Position numbers and translations under genes: made by a program
The notes under the pieces: model-generated
Told to the model about the DNA's origin: nothing
The model's database searches: none
The model's input: the letters and a program-made list of their open reading frames with translations, nothing else
Shown: piece by piece, positions 1-7,117 of the stretch
Layout of the letters: each line of letters begins with the position of its first letter
Position numbering within the stretch: position 1 is the first letter of the stretch
Origin: Clostridia bacterium
GTDB taxonomy: Bacteria > Bacillota > Clostridia > Oscillospirales > Acutalibacteraceae
Reading direction: 5' to 3'
Assembly (NCBI GenBank): GCA_017431035.1
Contig: JAFRLW010000006.1
Location: 1 to 34,186 of the forward strand
Length of the DNA: 34,186 nucleotides

Positions 1-2703
1 AATACCGCCGTTGATGATGATTGTGCTTTCGCAGTCTGAATATTTGCCGCCGCCGATACCTGCGCCGCCTTCATTACCGTGGGTTTCAATATAACCACCA
101 TTGATAGTAAGTCTGGTATCGCTGTATTTGATATCGATACCTGCGTTAGAGAAGGTTTCGTTCTTAATGATAAGTTTACCCATTGTTGCTTCATCCTGAG
201 ATTGGGCATAAATGGTCAGGCTGCCACTGCCGACATATATATGATTTGGAATGGTAATGGTTACGCCGTCTTTAATAATCAGGTGAATATTACCATAAAC
301 ATTTATATCATCATACTGCTCGTAGGTAACATCCTGATCGGCATAGAGCCAAACCGGATCATTATAACGCTCGTCATCCCAATCGTATTCGCTTCTCCAC
401 TCTCTCAAATCTTTTGAAATAGTTCTGTAATTTGTAGCATATTCTTCTGTGAAAGATCTGGTTTCGGAATCATATTTAAGATAGGAAGTGCCGTCTTTCG
501 AATAAACAGTAACTTCGCAGGTGGTTGTTTTATCATCGGAAGTATCTTCTGTGCCGTTGGTTGCGGTTGCTGTGATAACAGCGTTGCCCACGCCAACGGG
601 TACTACTTCGCCATTCCGGTCAACAGTTGCAACACTCTCGTCGCTGGAAGACCAAGTTACATTATCGCGTGAATCATAGGGGGCAACAGTCGGAATAAGA
701 TTTACATGATCAACACCGAGAGCGAGTTCCACCGATGCTTTATCTAATGTTACTCCGGTTACATCAGAGGGTACGCCGATATGAGCTCTGGCTACCTGGA
801 AAACTCTTGTTGCTTCTTCAATTTTGGTAACATCAATACGCGTATTATCACGGAATCCGTTACCGCTTACTACCATAATGTAATCTTCTCTTACGGTAAG
901 TTTGCCTGTGTATGCCACGAACTGAGCGCTTACATCAAGTGTACCGCCGTTTACGGTGATAGTCTCACTTGCTGCAATACCCTTGCCGGGATCCCAAGTG
1001 CCGCCCTGGGCGTTTACATAACCACCGTTTATTACAAATGCGGTGCAGACAATACCGCTGGTTCCGTGGAACTCATTGTCGCCTTTGGCTGAAAGCTTAC
1101 CGCCGTTTACGGTAACCGTATTTGCTGTTATAGCATCTTTACCACTCGGGGCAGATACTGTTACCGAACCGCTATGGATGGTTAAATCACCATTTCCGCT
1201 GATGGTCGGAGTAATCAGTTTAATGGTATCATCAAGCGAGGTACCGTAAACAGAAAGACTGCTGCCGCTCTTTATCTCGATTTCGTTCAAAACGTTTAAG
1301 GTTACACCATCGGCGATAACAAGATGAACATTACCGTTTACGGTGAGGCGATTATAATAGCTATTGTTGATCGTTATATCAGAATCAACATAATACCATT
1401 TATCTGTACCGATAGCACCCCAACTATAATCATCGGCATAAACCGGTGAATATGCGGTGGTCTTTTCGTTTACGAGTGTTTTGCTTTGTGCATCGTAAAC
1501 ATAATAGGAAATCTCATTCGGAATGAATACATTTACCGCACAGGTTGCCTCTTTGTCATCGGATGTATCTTCACTTCCGTTTGTTGCAATATAGCGGATG
1601 GTAGTTTTACCTACCGAAACAGGTGAAACTCTGCCATACTGGTCAACGGTTGCTATTTCCGGATTATCGGATACCCATTTATAGGTTTTGTAGGAAGCAT
1701 TATCGGGGCCCAAAGTGCCTGTAAGAACTACGGGCTTACGATAAAGGTTTACATCAATATCGGTTTGATCAAGCTGTGCTTCGCTTACATGAACCTGGGT
1801 TACGGTAACCACACAGGTGGCTGTTTTATCATCGGAAGGATCATCGGGTGTGCCGTTTATCGCAGTAGCGGTAATTGTCGCCGTACCTTCCCAAATACCC
1901 CTTACGGTGCCGTCTTGGTCAACAGTGGCAACCGCCGGGTTATCGGAAGTCCAAACAACATCGTCGGCATATCTGTATGAGGTATATTCCGGAACCGTGG
2001 TGTAAGAAAGTTTTTCTGAATTGCCGTTTGCCGCAAGTTCCATGCTTTCTTTATTAAGTGTTATCTTTTCAATGTCAAGAACCGTTACATTGACTGTGCA
2101 GGTTGCGGTTTTATCATCGGACGTATCGTCCGGTGTGCCGTTAGTGGCGGTTACGGTAATGGTTGCCGTGCCGAGATTAACGGGAGTTACTACACCTTTC
2201 TGATTAACCTTTACAATATTTTCGTCACTTGATGACCAAACTATCGTTTTATCGGAAGCGTCATCCTCCAAAACAGTTGCTTTAAGCGTATCGGAAGGAC
2301 CGTTATAAGTCAAGCCAAGTGTTTCGTGGTCAAGTGTTACGCCCGAAATATTGACATATCTTACCGTTACAACGCAGACAGTGGTTTTATCATCGGCAGT
2401 AGTTTCCGTTCCGTTGGTAGCAGTGATGGTAATGTTTGCCGTACCTGCCACACCGGGAGTTACTACGCCTTTGTTATCAACTGTTGCGACATCTGTGTTG
2501 TCGGATTCAAATTTAAGCCAATCAAATGTGTTGTAGGAAGCTTCAGCAGGTGCAAATACTGTATTGATTGTACCTGTAGGTCCGTTTACTTTAAGCTCCA
2601 TCGGCTCTGCCGTGATATCTGCCACGGAAACAGCTTCGCGAATAATAACATTCCAACAGCCTCCAGGATTTCTTACAGGATTGGTGGGATTTTCGTTATT
2701 TCC
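1..2703 (-). CDS. Continuation of the Big_2/beta-helix surface protein, shifted frame, runs off window
   Basis: The minus strand from about 2703 to base 1 is open for some 900 codons without a stop. It has no start of its own and simply continues the protein that begins at 4868. It encodes Big_2 domains at about 2360-2630, 2085-2350, 1800-2080 and 1530-1797, a third beta-helix-like module (about 770-1510), another Big_2 domain (about 506-765) and a fourth module (1-485) cut by the window edge. Big_2 hallmarks recur in every copy: W-S-S-D, VATVD, G-x-VTP, and an acidic hairpin such as NGTPDDTSDDKTATC. The restored junction (LAG-NNENPTNP) aligns with the same place in module 1 (KAG-NIVEE), which supports a single protein of more than 1,620 residues. 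No C-terminal anchor is visible in the window. Confidence 0.85.
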
Positions 2704-4868
2704 GCAAGAACAACCAGCTTATCGGCAGTGTTCAGCGTGCCGGAAATCGCTGGGTAAACATTAACACGGTCGTGATAACCTTGTGCGGAAACCGTACCAT
2801 TGTTTACAGTTATGGTGCCAGACATTCCAACAGCCCAATAGTCACCGGGCGTTGCCGTAACATCGCCGCCGTTGATGGTAATATTACCATCCAAACCACG
2901 GCCGCCGAAACCACCTGATGCAGAAATTTTTCCGCCGTTAATGGTAATGTTACCTCCTGTGCCAAGAGAGTAATGATAACCATCACGATAATGACCAAAT
3001 CCTGTGGTTAGTTTACCGGCAGTTTCTGCATTTTCAGACTGCGAATAAACCGTCAGACTATTGCCGGAATTAATGGTAATGCCGACATTTGCTTTCATTG
3101 TAACGCCGTTCTTGAGGATTAAATGGACGTCACCGAGAACAGTCATTCTGCCTGCAAAGGCTAAATCGTGGTCAACATAGTACCAGTGTTCCTCGCCCGC
3201 CTCGCCGAGAACAGCAATGTTGTTTGAAAAAGCCGTGTAGCCTGTAATGGTATCTAAACTGTCAATAAGAGTTGTGTAATCCTCGGTTGATTTTTGAGTA
3301 AAGCTGTCTGTATCTATATTATATTCAAGATATGAAACCGCAGCGGGTTTAGTTACCGTAACCGTGCAGGATGCAGTCTTGTCGTCTGACGGGTCGTCAG
3401 GCGAGCCGTTATCAGCTGTGTAAGTGATGACAGCAGTACCTACCTGACCCGGAGTTACGATACCGTTTTGGTCAACTGTTGCAACGCTTTCGTTGTTGCT
3501 TGACCAAACTGTTGATTTATATGATGCGTTATTCGGTCCGAGATCCGGGACGAGTTTTGCCGGATAACCGTTTGTTTTCATCTCAATGTTTGAATAGTCA
3601 ACTGTTACGCCGGAAACATCAACAACGCTCAGCGTTACCGTGCAAGTAGCTTTTTTGTCGTCAGATTTATCGTCAGGTGTACCGTTATTTGCAGTGGCAG
3701 TGATAGTCGCAGTGGCTACCTGACCGGGAGGTATAGCTCCTGGAGTCACCTTGCCGTTTGCATCAACTGTTGCAATGCTCTCATCGCTTGATTCCCATGT
3801 TACATAGCGTCCGTCGTTAAACGTAGCGTCGCTCGGTGTAAATACGGGAGTAAGGGTTGATGAATCTCCGCTGACATTCAAATTAAGCGTTGAGGCAATG
3901 GATAATCCTGTAACAGGAACAAGGTTGCGAATACGAACCTTTGCCTGATCGCCGTAGCCTCCAACAAGTTTCATCTCTTCGACAATGTTGCCCGCTTTCA
4001 TATACAAATCATCGGCAACTTTAAGGCTTCCGCCGAATGCTTTACCGTGATTTTGAATGGCATAAGCTTCAAGATCGCCGCCATTGACGGTGATATTACC
4101 ATAGCCGTAATTCGGTGCACAACCGATGCAATAGCCCCAGTTGTCATTATCGCCGTTTTGGGCATAAACATGGCCGCCGTTTAATACGAAGTTACTGTTT
4201 ACACCGCCGATAGCTTCGGGCTGACCGGGGCCGGTGTATAGGTTGCCCATACGGGAATATGCATAAACTTCGCCGCCGTTTACGGTAAGCAAACCGCCGC
4301 CGCCACAGTCAATACCTACTCTGTTTCTTCCGGCTTGACCTGTAACTCTACCGCCGTTAATGGTAAGGCTGGCGCCGTTAACATCAATGCCGGGCTGGCC
4401 TGTTCTGCGGCCGAAATATTCACCTTCGCCGCAAGTACCGTTAGAGTAAAGCTCACCCATATTAGAACCGGTGGACTGAGCATAAATGGTAAGACTGCCG
4501 CCGCCGTAAACCTTGATACCGAAAGCACCAAAACTTACTTTAACGCCATCCTTAAGAACAAGGCGAACATCACCGCGGCAATTCATATAATAATAATCAT
4601 CGCCCCAAGTGCTCGGTGTGTTGAAAATATGGTTTTTTTCAGCAACATACCACTTGGTTTCGCCTTCTGTGCCCAAATTCCTCTGGCCGGTGTATGATTC
4701 ATACTCTGTACATGTCGCTTCGGTGAACTCACCGGTTTCGGCATTGTAATCAAGGTATGAAACTGCATCTGCCGCATTTGCGGTAAGTGTCAAACTATAA
4801 AATAGTGACACAAACATCGCAAGGCAAAGAACAAGGCTTGTAAGTCTTTTTGCTGTTTTTTGCTTCAT
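2673..4868 (-). CDS. Secreted Big_2/beta-helix surface protein, N-terminal part (frameshifted)
   Basis: This is the 731-residue first part of a giant exported protein. A clear signal peptide (basic MKQKTAKR, hydrophobic core, ANA-A cleavage near residue 32) sends it through Sec. Residues about 36-315 and 508-722 are two copies of a module starting YL(D/E)YN, then GDV(R/H)L(V/I)LK(D/N)GV, SLT(I/V)Y(A/S)QS and repeated xITINGG turns, typical of parallel beta-helix carbohydrate-binding or adhesin proteins. Two Big_2 Ig-like domains lie between them (about 318-415 and 416-505), each with SIATVD/SVATVD and G.VTPG. The start has a good RBS (AAAGGAG, 8 bases upstream). The frame ends at 2673 after an unrelated 8-residue tail, because one base seems missing near 2702. 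The same protein continues in another frame down to base 1. Function is unknown; cell-surface adhesion or glycan binding is inferred. Confidence 0.85.
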   Translation of the reverse strand: MKQKTAKRLTSLVLCLAMFVSLFYSLTLTANAADAVSYLDYNAETGEFTEATCTEYESYTGQRNLGTEGETKWYVAEKNHIFNTPSTWGDDYYYMNCRGDVRLVLKDGVKVSFGAFGIKVYGGGSLTIYAQSTGSNMGELYSNGTCGEGEYFGRRTGQPGIDVNGASLTINGGRVTGQAGRNRVGIDCGGGGLLTVNGGEVYAYSRMGNLYTGPGQPEAIGGVNSNFVLNGGHVYAQNGDNDNWGYCIGCAPNYGYGNITVNGGDLEAYAIQNHGKAFGGSLKVADDLYMKAGNIVEEMKLVGGYGDQAKVRIRNLVPVTGLSIASTLNLNVSGDSSTLTPVFTPSDATFNDGRYVTWESSDESIATVDANGKVTPGAIPPGQVATATITATANNGTPDDKSDDKKATCTVTLSVVDVSGVTVDYSNIEMKTNGYPAKLVPDLGPNNASYKSTVWSSNNESVATVDQNGIVTPGQVGTAVITYTADNGSPDDPSDDKTASCTVTVTKPAAVSYLEYNIDTDSFTQKSTEDYTTLIDSLDTITGYTAFSNNIAVLGEAGEEHWYYVDHDLAFAGRMTVLGDVHLILKNGVTMKANVGITINSGNSLTVYSQSENAETAGKLTTGFGHYRDGYHYSLGTGGNITINGGKISASGGFGGRGLDGNITINGGDVTATPGDYWAVGMSGTITVNNGTVSAQGYHDRVNVYPAISGTLNTADKLVVLAEITKIPPIL

Positions 4869-4954
4869 TAAAAGTTTCTCCTTTCACGCTCGTTTTAAAA
4901 GGGCTGATTATATGTTTTTTAATTGGTTTGTAACTTATGACACAAATAAAACAG

Positions 4955-5040
4955 AGATCCCGTTTGCGGAATCAGACCCGGTCAGCTAACGGGTTTCACC
5001 ATCGCGCATCGAATAGGTGTTCATCAGCGTATCACCGCTC
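4955..5040 (-). ncRNA. Candidate structured leader RNA (class not recognised)
   Basis: Read on the minus strand, the island could fold into GATTCCG-CAAA-CGGGATC (4956-4973) and CCCG-N9-CGGG (4977-4993). It could also form one of two competing pairings that use the CACC/GGTG elements between 4997 and 5036. It would lie about 90-170 bases upstream of the surface-protein start, inside its probable 5' leader. Part of it recalls SAM-I (GTGAAACCCG) or, on the plus strand, ydaO (GTCAGCTAAC), but the conserved cores of those classes are absent. Orientation is uncertain. Confidence 0.3.
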
Positions 5041-5199
5041 CATTGAATGACCAAACAAATGAAACAAACCGTTCCCTTTTAATAATATTTCAACCGCCTT
5101 AATTTTCCCATATTTTAAACCTCTTTTCAAGTGCGGTTGCCGGATTGGAAACCTCCGCGATATCAAAAATTTTAAAAATCTGTTGACAATTCCTTGCGT

Positions 5200-5228
5200 T
5201 TGCTCAATTTATCAGGTAAACTTATAAC
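5200..5228 (+). promoter_or_regulatory. Weak candidate promoter for the two-component operon
   Basis: TTGCTC (5200-5205) and TATAAC (5223-5228) are 17 bases apart, which gives a leader of about 22 bases before the ATG at 5257. A better -35, TTGACA (5183-5188), has only AATTTA at the right distance. Either could be used, so this is a low-confidence choice between two weak promoters. Confidence 0.35.
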
Positions 5229-5256
5229 AGTAGATTTACAGGGAGCGATAGTATAT

Positions 5257-5853
5257 ATGATTATGCTTTTTGCAGAAGTCCTTAAAAAATTGCGAAGAAA
5301 AAAAGGGCTCTCACAGAGTGATATCGCAAAGCAAATGTATGTTACCAAATCCACGGTATCCCGGTGGGAAAACGGTACACGCTTACCCGACGCCACTATG
5401 ATATCTCGCCTTGCTGAAATCTTGGATGTGGACGTCAATTATTTGCTCTACGCCACCACCGAGAGAGACGAATCCCCCAACATCATTATGGTGGATGATA
5501 ATGCCGTCATCTTAAACGGCGGTCTGCCTGTCATAAAAAAGGTTCTGCCGAACGCTAGAGTCACAGGCTTTACAAAACCGTCTGAGGCGATAGATTTTGC
5601 AAAACAAAACCGTGTAGCCCTCGCTTTTTTGGACATTGAGATGGGAGCGGTCAGCGGTTTAGACGTTTGCAGAGAACTTCTTGAAATCAATCAACATACC
5701 AACGTCGTGTATCTGACCGCATACAGCAATTATTCTCTTGACGCATGGGAGACCGGAGCATGCGGATTTATGCTTAAACCCATAACAGTCGAAGCGATCA
5801 AAACCCGACTTGACAAATTGCGCTTTCCTTTTCTTTTAGGAGGCGAGAAATAA
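5257..5853 (+). CDS. XRE-family HTH / response-regulator receiver fusion protein
   Basis: Residues 4-62 are a Cro/C1-type HTH (LRRKKGLSQSDIAKQM...TKSTVSRWENG). Residues about 72-190 are a CheY-like receiver domain with the acidic pair in MVDD, phosphoacceptor Asp in FLDIEM, the Thr in YLTAY and the conserved Lys in MLKPI. The DNA-binding domain therefore comes before the receiver, the reverse of the usual OmpR, NarL or LytTR order, and no other output domain is present. The ATG at 5257 is preferred over an upstream TTG at 5194 because AGGGAG lies at 5240-5245. The stop overlaps the start of the following kinase gene (TAATG), so the two are translationally coupled and very probably cognate. 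The divergent surface-protein gene is the likely target, by inference only. Confidence 0.85.
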   Translation: MIMLFAEVLKKLRRKKGLSQSDIAKQMYVTKSTVSRWENGTRLPDATMISRLAEILDVDVNYLLYATTERDESPNIIMVDDNAVILNGGLPVIKKVLPNARVTGFTKPSEAIDFAKQNRVALAFLDIEMGAVSGLDVCRELLEINQHTNVVYLTAYSNYSLDAWETGACGFMLKPITVEAIKTRLDKLRFPFLLGGEK

Positions 5854-6314
5854 TGACGAATTTGACATATATCATTGATTCCCTCGTAGCAGGCGCTTTG
5901 CTTACGATGATGTTGATCGGAATTGCATTTTCGGCTTTTATGCCGGCGCTTGATAAGTGGAACAGGCGATTTTTTATCACCTTATTTTCTCTGCTGTTTT
6001 TATGCGCCGTAACTTGCTTACTGTCTATGATTTTCTACGACGATCCCGGAAAAGCAACATTAGAAAAATTTATTTATGTCTTTGAATCGTTGTTTATGTC
6101 GGTGCTGATTTTTATGCCGACGATCTTTCTTTTGCATTGCTCGCACGAAGAATTAAAACACAGTGCGCTCTTCTTTGCGATGACAATACTGTTGGGCATA
6201 TACATAGCAATTCTTATAATTGCGCAGTTCACCGATGTTTTCTACTATGTTTCGCCTGATAACCGCTTTTCTACGGACCACTTTACAAATTGTCTTTGGT
6301 TCCGCTTGTCTTAA
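5853..6314 (+). CDS. LytS/YesM-like sensor histidine kinase, N-terminal membrane part (frameshifted)
   Basis: This is the membrane half of a sensor kinase. About four hydrophobic segments are visible (residues about 8-30, 40-62, 74-95 and 107-128). RBS AGGAGG lies at 5839-5844, and the ATG overlaps the stop of the XRE-receiver gene. The frame reads sensibly to about residue 139 (YYVSPDNRF), then becomes an unrelated tail ending at 6314. One T added to the TTTT run at 6267-6270 would give F-F-Y-G-P-L-Y-K-L and join it in frame to the kinase part that follows. The restored protein would be about 421 residues. Whether this is a real mutation or a sequencing error cannot be told from one sequence. 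Confidence 0.7.
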   Translation: MTNLTYIIDSLVAGALLTMMLIGIAFSAFMPALDKWNRRFFITLFSLLFLCAVTCLLSMIFYDDPGKATLEKFIYVFESLFMSVLIFMPTIFLLHCSHEELKHSALFFAMTILLGIYIAILIIAQFTDVFYYVSPDNRFSTDHFTNCLWFRLS

Positions 6315-7117
6315 TCATGATTTTGAACATCGCAGGCGTAATCACAAGGCGAAAAAAACTATTCAAAAAGCATTTTTCTGCGCTCCTTATCTATCTTTTT
6401 CCGATGACGGCTGCGATCATCATTCATATGTTCATCCCGGTTGAATTATTTGTTGTATTCGGTATGGCGCTCCTTGTGATGATTATGTTTGGTCTGATTC
6501 TTTTAGATAATATGGAACAGTACGCAAAACAGCAACAGGAGATTGTCAATCAACGTGCCAGCGTTATGATGCTCAAGATGCGTCCCCATTTTATTTACAA
6601 CACAATGACAACCATCTACTACCTGTGTAAACAGGATGCGGATAAGGCGCAACAGGTCATCATGGATTTCACTAATTATCTGCGACAGAACTTCAATGCT
6701 ATTGCAAGCGAGGACGCCGTTCCTTTTGCCGACGAGCTGAAACATACGCAATCATATCTCGCCGTAGAAAAGGCACAACATGAGAACAACCTTTTCGTGA
6801 AGTATGATACGCCGTTTACGCATTTTCGCTTGCCGCCGCTAACCCTGCAACCGCTTGTTGAAAATGCCGTCAAACACGCTATGGACCCAAACGCAGGACC
6901 TCTTACCGTTTTTATCCGGACACAGCAAACGGACAAGGGTGTCTTTATTACCGTAGAGGACAATGGCAAGGGCTTTGACCCCGACGATAAACATAAGCCA
7001 CATCCCGCCCTTGATAACATCGAAAGCAGACTCAAACAACAATGCGACGGAGAATTGAAAATCGAGTCTGCACCCGGAAAAACAACCGTTACGTTATTTA
7101 TCCCGCAAAAATCATAA
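6290..7117 (+). CDS. LytS/YesM-like sensor histidine kinase, C-terminal catalytic part
   Basis: This frame holds the last membrane segments (about residues 3-20 and 28-70), then a His_kinase (PF06580-type) dimerisation domain with the phosphoacceptor His in MRPHFIYN, and an HATPase domain. The N box is VENAVKHAM and the G box is DNGKGF. The next motif reads PALDNIESRL, where relatives usually have GL.N. It has no RBS or ATG of its own at 6290 (the first codon is TTG), so it is the continuation of the upstream frame after a lost base near 6268. Kinases of this family normally pair with LytTR or AraC-type regulators; here the coupled partner is an XRE-receiver protein. The signal sensed is unknown. 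Confidence 0.8.
   Translation: MSLVPLVLIMILNIAGVITRRKKLFKKHFSALLIYLFPMTAAIIIHMFIPVELFVVFGMALLVMIMFGLILLDNMEQYAKQQQEIVNQRASVMMLKMRPHFIYNTMTTIYYLCKQDADKAQQVIMDFTNYLRQNFNAIASEDAVPFADELKHTQSYLAVEKAQHENNLFVKYDTPFTHFRLPPLTLQPLVENAVKHAMDPNAGPLTVFIRTQQTDKGVFITVEDNGKGFDPDDKHKPHPALDNIESRLKQQCDGELKIESAPGKTTVTLFIPQKS

Follow-up and report, generated by a model that had tools for sequence, protein, structure and literature searches.

Two-component systems of the LytS/LytR type (HPK8, PF06580) pair a multi-pass membrane sensor, built on a core of PF06580 and HATPase_c, with an adjacent response regulator whose C-terminal domain is LytTR. In the response regulators that have an XRE output, HTH_3 and Response_reg are combined in a single protein, and the phage regulator lambda CI activates its own promoter, PRM, from a site next to the -35 element. 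Here we describe a locus with features of each in a 34,186-nucleotide (nt) stretch of DNA (hereafter the window), which is the entire contig JAFRLW010000006.1 of a 1.48-Mb assembly of a Clostridia bacterium (GCA_017431035.1; 44 contigs, 95% complete). An XRE-receiver response regulator and a membrane histidine kinase are encoded there in tandem, divergently from a large surface-protein gene. We propose that they probably form a local, essentially single-target two-component module, in which the phosphorylated regulator activates the adjacent gene from an operator beside its -35. The domain make-up, conserved gene pairing, operator, residue-base covariation, and preferred promoter spacing on which this proposal draws were all read from sequence.

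Regulator, kinase, and operator

The regulator gene (5257–5853, forward strand) encodes 198 amino acids (aa), with an N-terminal HTH_3 domain (residues 9–63, E = 3e-17) whose Pfam score above the cut-off identifies it as XRE-type, and a C-terminal Response_reg domain (residues 76–185, E = 3e-16). Receiver residues D80, D126, T154, and K174 were invariant in 40 aligned regulators (of 79 readable) and also in a set of seven, and D81 was invariant in the 40, with N in locus L012. Pfam matches to the regulator comprised HTH domains and Response_reg only, with no LytTR domain among them.

The kinase gene follows directly and is split over two different frames, the first (5853–6314, forward) covering the N-terminal part of the membrane region and the second (6290–7117, forward) the remaining membrane region, a His_kinase domain (PF06580) with an MRPHFIYN box, and HATPase_c. 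Five relatives with a kinase have it in a single frame of 420–456 aa, and approximately seven membrane helices were counted in relatives by the simple hydropathy rule that was used for all membrane helices and signal peptides. Among 70 kinases, picked from 80 loci for a full frame and the RPH motif (so that invariance of this motif is partly by choice), PF06580 was found in all 70 and HATPase_c in 69. No Pfam family covered the membrane part consistently across the 70, and neither the LytS membrane domain (5TM-5TMR_LYT) nor GAF matched any of them at E = 0.01. The original prediction of a LytS-type kinase therefore holds for the core and fails for the membrane part. Membership of the LytS group itself was rejected, given kinases that lack the LytS membrane domain and a regulator that lacks LytTR.

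Conservation was assessed in several sets of genomes. A regulator match at E = 1e-12 was present in 22 of 149 genomes (the window's own included), seven of which, again including its own, had a full-length regulator, while the rest matched by receiver or HTH alone. Of the six relatives with a full-length regulator, five have a single-frame kinase behind it and, divergently, a gene for an exported-type protein (2485, 1176, and 2274 aa where complete, the other two being truncated at contig ends); both genes are missing from the 3.1-kb contig of the sixth relative. A search across the family gave 22 full-length places, spread over 16 of 398 genomes (the window's among them). The module is thus patchily distributed, with up to three copies per genome (G199). 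Scanning named genomes yielded 462 confirmed related stretches, from which the best 80 were retained, a choice biased to close relatives. By the depositors' own labels, these were 72 Bacillota, 3 Actinomycetota, 3 Chloroflexota, and 2 without phylum, and the host, where the title of a relative's record names one, is a ruminant. Together with the window and loci L038, L039, and L040, they make up the main set of 84 loci.

In 83 of the 84 loci (all but L039) and in all 19 further loci from the family search, the gene immediately downstream of the regulator encodes a kinase, whole, cut, or split. One of the latter, L168, duplicates the contig of L063, and none of the others has regulator DNA in common with the 83 fetched relatives (L171 stood outside that comparison). 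The predicted pairing of an XRE helix-turn-helix and receiver regulator with a membrane histidine kinase is thus real, and the neighborhood, for which a lack of conservation in relatives had been named as the refuting outcome, is conserved.

The top dyad and k-mer signal in the 250 nt before the regulator gene was GTTCCA-GAA-TGGAAC and variants, and a second k-mer, CCCCTTGAAA, corresponds to the neighbor's -35 beside it. In the window, profile and pattern searches predict the site as the 17-bp palindrome GTTGCCGGATTGGAAAC at 5136–5152 (centre 5144). Of 102 loci (with L063/L168 entered twice and L171 omitted because it is identical to L170), 81 scored above the 99% shuffle threshold with the 17-bp profile, which was seeded from the consensus seen in all loci. 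The median was 18.9 bits, compared with medians of 8.7–9.6 when the same fitting was applied to shuffled sequences. When trained without the surface-protein loci, though with the starting consensus still taken from all loci, the profile recovered 20 of 23 of them, the window included, and missed L063, L168 (one contig), and L178. Among the 84 loci, an operator was found in 62 of 63 with a divergent neighbor (all but L100), near the regulator in 2 of 18 with a co-directional neighbor, and in 2 of 3 without upstream information; it was also found in 15 of 18 further loci (all but L175, L178, and L184). Three of the 16 co-directional loci without a proximal operator have no flank, and 12 of the other 13 have an operator upstream of the first gene (the exception being L053).

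The operator also appears to be largely confined to the module. GTTGCCGGATTGGAAAC is the sole match within three mismatches in 34 kb (0.09 expected), and a looser pattern has a single exact match in the whole 1.48-Mb assembly, at the module. A genome-wide regulon in the window's genome, which encodes five receiver domains in total, was unsupported: the pattern at up to two mismatches gave 74 matches, versus 116 for the reversed control. A related pattern was searched in three relatives, with an exact match at the module in G067 and none in G048. Within 1.09 Mb of locus sequence, 76 sites scoring 15 bits or more were at the expected place and 17 elsewhere, versus 11 in one shuffle.

On the reverse strand, the predicted -35 of the surface gene (TTGAAA, 5125–5130) has its first base 14 bp from the operator centre and lies 17 bp from the predicted -10 (GAAAAT, 5102–5107). 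This spacing recurs: among 61 loci with a good promoter on the neighbor side (of 74 evaluated), the best -35 starts at precisely 14 bp from the centre of the operator in 42 and at 13–15 bp in 49. Distances on the regulator side are scattered, and the most frequent, 28 bp, accounts for 7 of 54 good promoters (of 81 evaluated); the window's candidate -35 for the regulator-kinase operon (TTGACA, 5183–5188, forward) occupies the same position in L041. Of the 12 co-directional loci with an operator upstream of the first gene, 9 have a promoter at 13–14 bp directed into the co-directional gene; in L083 and L099 this promoter faces the other way, and L118 lacks it. The predicted site therefore usually moves and turns with a co-directional neighbor.

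Covariation between regulator residues and operator bases was counted over the 93 loci with an operator. Residue 31, where the recognition helix begins, varied with position 2: R occurred with G in 70 loci, T in 3, and A in 1; K with T in 8; N with T in 9; P with T in 1; and Q with G in 1. R31 thus goes with G2 in 70 of 74 loci, and K or N31 with T2 in 17 of 17. At the mirror position 16, R occurred with C (71) and A (3), K with A (7) and C (1), N with A (9), P with A (1), and Q with T (1). Residue 36 varied with position 5: R with C (77) and A (3), K with G (3) and C (2), N with T (2) and A (1), H with A (2), Y with A (1), S with T (1), and G with A (1). By mutual information, to which the symmetry was not supplied, residue 31 with positions 2 and 16 ranked first and residue 36 with position 5 came next. 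In the largest set of independent pairs found on the best receiver-only tree, R31/G2 changed the same way in 14, the opposite way in 0, and showed no difference in 1; the corresponding counts for R36/C5 were 7, 0, and 1. Nine of ten control residues went both ways. Positions 31 and 36 are those we take to be equivalent to Q28 and Q33 of the 434 repressor, and the palindrome together with the mirror-symmetric covariation suggests that the XRE domain binds as a dimer. The copies in G199 (L168, L177, and L181) carry differing operator letters, as insulation of copies within one genome would require.

Other meanings of the intergenic region were considered and rejected. An RNA hairpin does not provide a general explanation of the palindrome, because many copies have unpaired arms (complementary at positions 4-14 in 36 of 93 and at 5-13 in 41 of 93), as expected of a protein site with two half-site types. 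The region had also been described as GC-rich and structured; it is not GC-rich overall (0.29–0.52 in 100-nt windows), its RNA fold score (z = -0.14) shows no structure, and Rfam at gathering thresholds gave no match in the window.

Proposed activation and its alternatives

Given these features, we infer control by phosphorylation, activation rather than repression, a signal for the kinase, and a ligand for the surface protein. The kinase, through its membrane helices and His_kinase/HATPase core, would sense a cue and phosphorylate Asp126 of the receiver, and the N-terminal XRE domain would bind the palindrome. Phosphorylation control is implied by an intact receiver pocket and a kinase neighbor in nearly every locus. 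As the operator lies just upstream of the predicted surface-gene -35, the bound regulator would most likely recruit RNA polymerase at that promoter, and one large surface protein, which may bind a surface or glycan, would be switched on. Activation by the phosphorylated regulator is favored because the palindrome abuts the -35 at a preferred distance while the spacer varies (16–18 bp).

The predicted surface protein had been given as a single protein of more than 1,620 residues. Its gene starts at 4868 on the reverse strand and is instead found as two pieces in different frames, one of 731 aa (2673–4868) and one of at least 875 aa (1–2625), where it runs off the contig start. One frame change is thus present in the surface gene (2625–2673) and one in the kinase (about 6290), and the stretch that separates them, with the regulator, operator, and predicted promoters, appears undamaged. 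These two changes in adjacent genes, together with the long end branch of the regulator (0.36 versus 0.031 in its sister), raise the possibility that the module is a pseudogene remnant in this genome. Such decay is possible, although we find it doubtful, and it would be compatible with activation by the phosphorylated regulator in the relatives. Against decay, nonsynonymous divergence (dN) from the nearest relative, L041, is low relative to synonymous divergence (dS) in the regulator (dN 0.136, dS 1.05) and both kinase halves (dN 0.146, dS 0.54 and dN 0.127, dS 1.07). The genome also retains the operator together with the predicted promoters, and L067, L103, and L107 likewise have split kinases. 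Metagenome assemblies often carry frame errors, and the changes may equally reflect an assembly error.

The main rival for the mechanism is repression, in which the unphosphorylated XRE-receiver protein blocks the divergent promoter from the palindrome and phosphorylation releases it. Many stand-alone XRE regulators are repressors, the top-scoring NCBIfam match of the regulator, at 54 bits against a cut-off of 80, is the phage repressor RstR, and an operator that borders the -35 could act by steric hindrance. However, the operator lies upstream of the -35, with its centre in the window approximately 49 nt upstream of the predicted transcript start of the surface gene (near 5095), and does not overlap the -35 or -10 (42 of 61 loci). 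A distance that holds at 14 bp while the -35/-10 spacer ranges over 16–18 bp is more readily explained by polymerase contact than by blockade, and we therefore consider repression unlikely. Autoregulation alone, with the palindrome serving the regulator-kinase operon and the neighbor merely adjacent, would fit the distance from operator centre to regulator start codon (median 102 nt; 65 of 81 within 80–130) and the candidate -35 of that operon 38 nt from the operator in the window, but is highly improbable given the scattered regulator-side distances versus the 14-bp cluster on the neighbor side, and an operator that lies upstream of a co-directional neighbor in 12 of 13 testable loci with a promoter into it in 9 of 12.

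Several observations weigh against activation of a single adjacent target by the phosphorylated regulator. The kinase and surface gene are both frame-broken in this assembly, so this copy may be inactive. While the position of the operator beside the -35 suggests activation, it is also compatible with repression, and the count of 42 of 61 promoters took in family-search loci without a check of neighbor orientation. Five loci had no operator (L100, L053, L175, L178, and L184), including one surface-protein locus (L178). The tenth control residue, 22, was also one-way (9 to 0, with 17 showing no difference), and the receiver-only tree is weakly supported, its well-supported branches leaving only three independent pairs. 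In G224, the single exact match of the related pattern is away from the module, and a second operator is found nearby in L077, L099, and L107, so that restriction to a single target is not absolute; sites diverged past the patterns used would, moreover, have been missed.

The second operators in L077 (3385), L099 (6395), and L107 (7459) resemble the letters of their own locus's operator, each has its own -35 at 14 bp, and they point to further local targets. A further site in L066 has no 14-bp promoter.

Genes beside the module

The first piece of the window's surface protein has a signal-peptide-like N-terminus, Gly-rich beta-helix-like repeats, and Big_2 domains, and the second has further Big_2 repeats (Pfam, E = 1.2e-19 and 1.1e-47, respectively) and a Cthe_2159 stretch. 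Seven of the 11 Big_2 matches in the window's genome fall in this gene. The single Cthe_2159 match (PF14262; E = 1.8e-7, 31.1 bits versus a cut-off of 25.8) spans profile positions 111–203 of 262, and two other repeat stretches of the protein had no Pfam model above cut-off. Searched against PDB sequences, the first piece had a single weak match, to BglH (E = 9e-5), which covered the Big_2 region. Its domains suggest that the protein may have a role in attachment or glycan binding. The ten window proteins tested that are encoded beyond the kinase were of housekeeping kinds (e.g., GroEL, a DAGK/YegS lipid kinase, RelA/SpoT, and RecJ).

We assessed how the upstream neighbor varies across the 84 loci, with classes assigned by eye and motif and part of them checked by Pfam. 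A surface-type exported protein is the neighbor in 18 loci (several cut by contig ends, leaving their size open-ended) and a GGDEF protein in 25 (15 divergent and 10 co-directional), with two more cut look-alikes. The others comprise small membrane proteins (4), amidohydrolases (4), loci without information (3), and various genes (28), one of which had been called a possible GGDEF protein by script and was read instead as a mechanosensitive-channel-like protein. Pfam confirmed GGDEF in all three such neighbors tested and found STAS-HAD, SpoIIE, amidohydrolase, and HlyD once each. Exported proteins of 500 aa or more are the upstream neighbor in 12 of 76 loci, versus 20 of 667 other genes at the same loci, an excess over chance when judged by a crude rule, although the rows of this comparison are related to one another.

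Surface-type partners themselves differ, and include a dockerin protein (2485 aa), a BspA-type leucine-rich repeat protein with InlB-type repeats, and a SpaA protein with an LPXTG-like end below cut-off. Six of nine other surface-type partners scanned had no Pfam match at E = 1e-4, and no Pfam domain was common to the surface proteins tested. In the regulator tree, the nine-row group that holds the window contains eight surface-protein loci, and across the tree, the surface-protein trait changes at least eight times. A giant Big_2/beta-helix protein as the fixed partner was accordingly rejected, as the neighbors include GGDEF proteins and various other genes; the variation in neighbor class implies that the giant adhesin is one version of an interchangeable partner. 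The original prediction of a dedicated circuit controlling one large surface protein is thus partly supported: its dedication to the divergent gene gains support from the operator, covariation, -35 spacing, and single exact match, but the combination of genes is not fixed.

Several individual neighbors were unusual. In a goat-gut Clostridia metagenome-assembled genome (MAG), the exported-type protein of L063 (1–5157, reverse strand; 1719 aa, cut) contains a ubiquitin domain (PF00240, residues 1425–1493, E = 3.5e-19), which is unexpected in a bacterial surface protein. Large divergent exported-type proteins without a Pfam match at E = 1e-4 are encoded in L042 (2–9805, reverse strand), L056, L044, L072, L061, and L052, the largest reaching up to 3268 aa (cut). 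The divergent small membrane proteins of L043, L048, L051, and L075 are approximately 217–219 aa where complete and share a MYLYLSLA start; that of L048, the only one of the four tested, had no Pfam match. In L176 (G224), the module lies beside a pilus-like locus with a pair judged pilin-like by eye, namely two divergent exported-type proteins (1052 and 498 aa) that both have a hydrophobic stretch at the C-terminus. A GGDEF-motif protein in L089 (3–2024, reverse strand) continues without a stop into acidic repeats, as either a real fusion or a chimeric contig.

Comparison with known systems

Viewed across loci, these modules may be insulated, plug-in two-component cassettes that form an apparently undescribed family, a proposal that we consider evenly balanced. 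In such cassettes, a membrane kinase would act on an XRE-receiver protein that activates the one neighboring gene much as lambda CI does, and the arrangement would be re-used for attachment genes (giant surface proteins and a pilus-like locus) and cyclic di-GMP enzymes. Copies would be insulated by a recognition code in which regulator residues 31, 35, and 36 are read against operator positions 2, 4, and 5 and their mirrors. The family would be common in ruminant-gut Bacillota and also present in MAGs labelled Actinomycetota and Chloroflexota. No XRE-receiver regulators of this kind were described among the titles and abstracts listed by full-text literature searches on such regulators, which is weak evidence given that subscription journals were mostly outside their coverage.

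If the proposal is correct, the DNA site, promoter geometry, and target gene of an unannotated signalling family could be read from sequence, and the operator and -35 spacing could guide the search for targets across many gut genomes (one scan confirmed 462 related stretches). Uncharacterized giant surface proteins of ruminant-gut bacteria would be tied to a defined sensor, and the cue of the kinase would provide a handle on when these bacteria attach. The residue-base code could also offer orthogonal activator-promoter pairs.

Relative to the known systems introduced above, the module shares the kinase core, multi-pass sensor, and adjacent regulator of the LytS/LytR type, but differs in the membrane part of the sensor and in having an N-terminal XRE domain in place of the C-terminal LytTR domain. 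It resembles XRE-output response regulators in domain content, but the DNA-binding domain comes first, and no PDB chain listed at E = 1e-5 matched the regulator across both domains. Proteins of the Cthe_2159 carbohydrate-binding beta-helix and Big_2 kinds are echoed by the Big_2 repeats in both pieces of the window's surface protein and by the Cthe_2159 match, although this match covers only part of the protein and carbohydrate binding is suggested by the Pfam name. The likeness to lambda CI and 434 lies in a dimer on a short palindrome (predicted here), in positions presumably equivalent to Q28 and Q33 that go with the outer and fourth bases, and in a site placed beside the -35, as for CI at PRM; the difference lies in control through a receiver and kinase and in the use of mostly one site rather than a multi-site switch. 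The module is, in general terms, a two-component system, distinguished by its XRE-first regulator, unnamed sensor, local target, and readable code.

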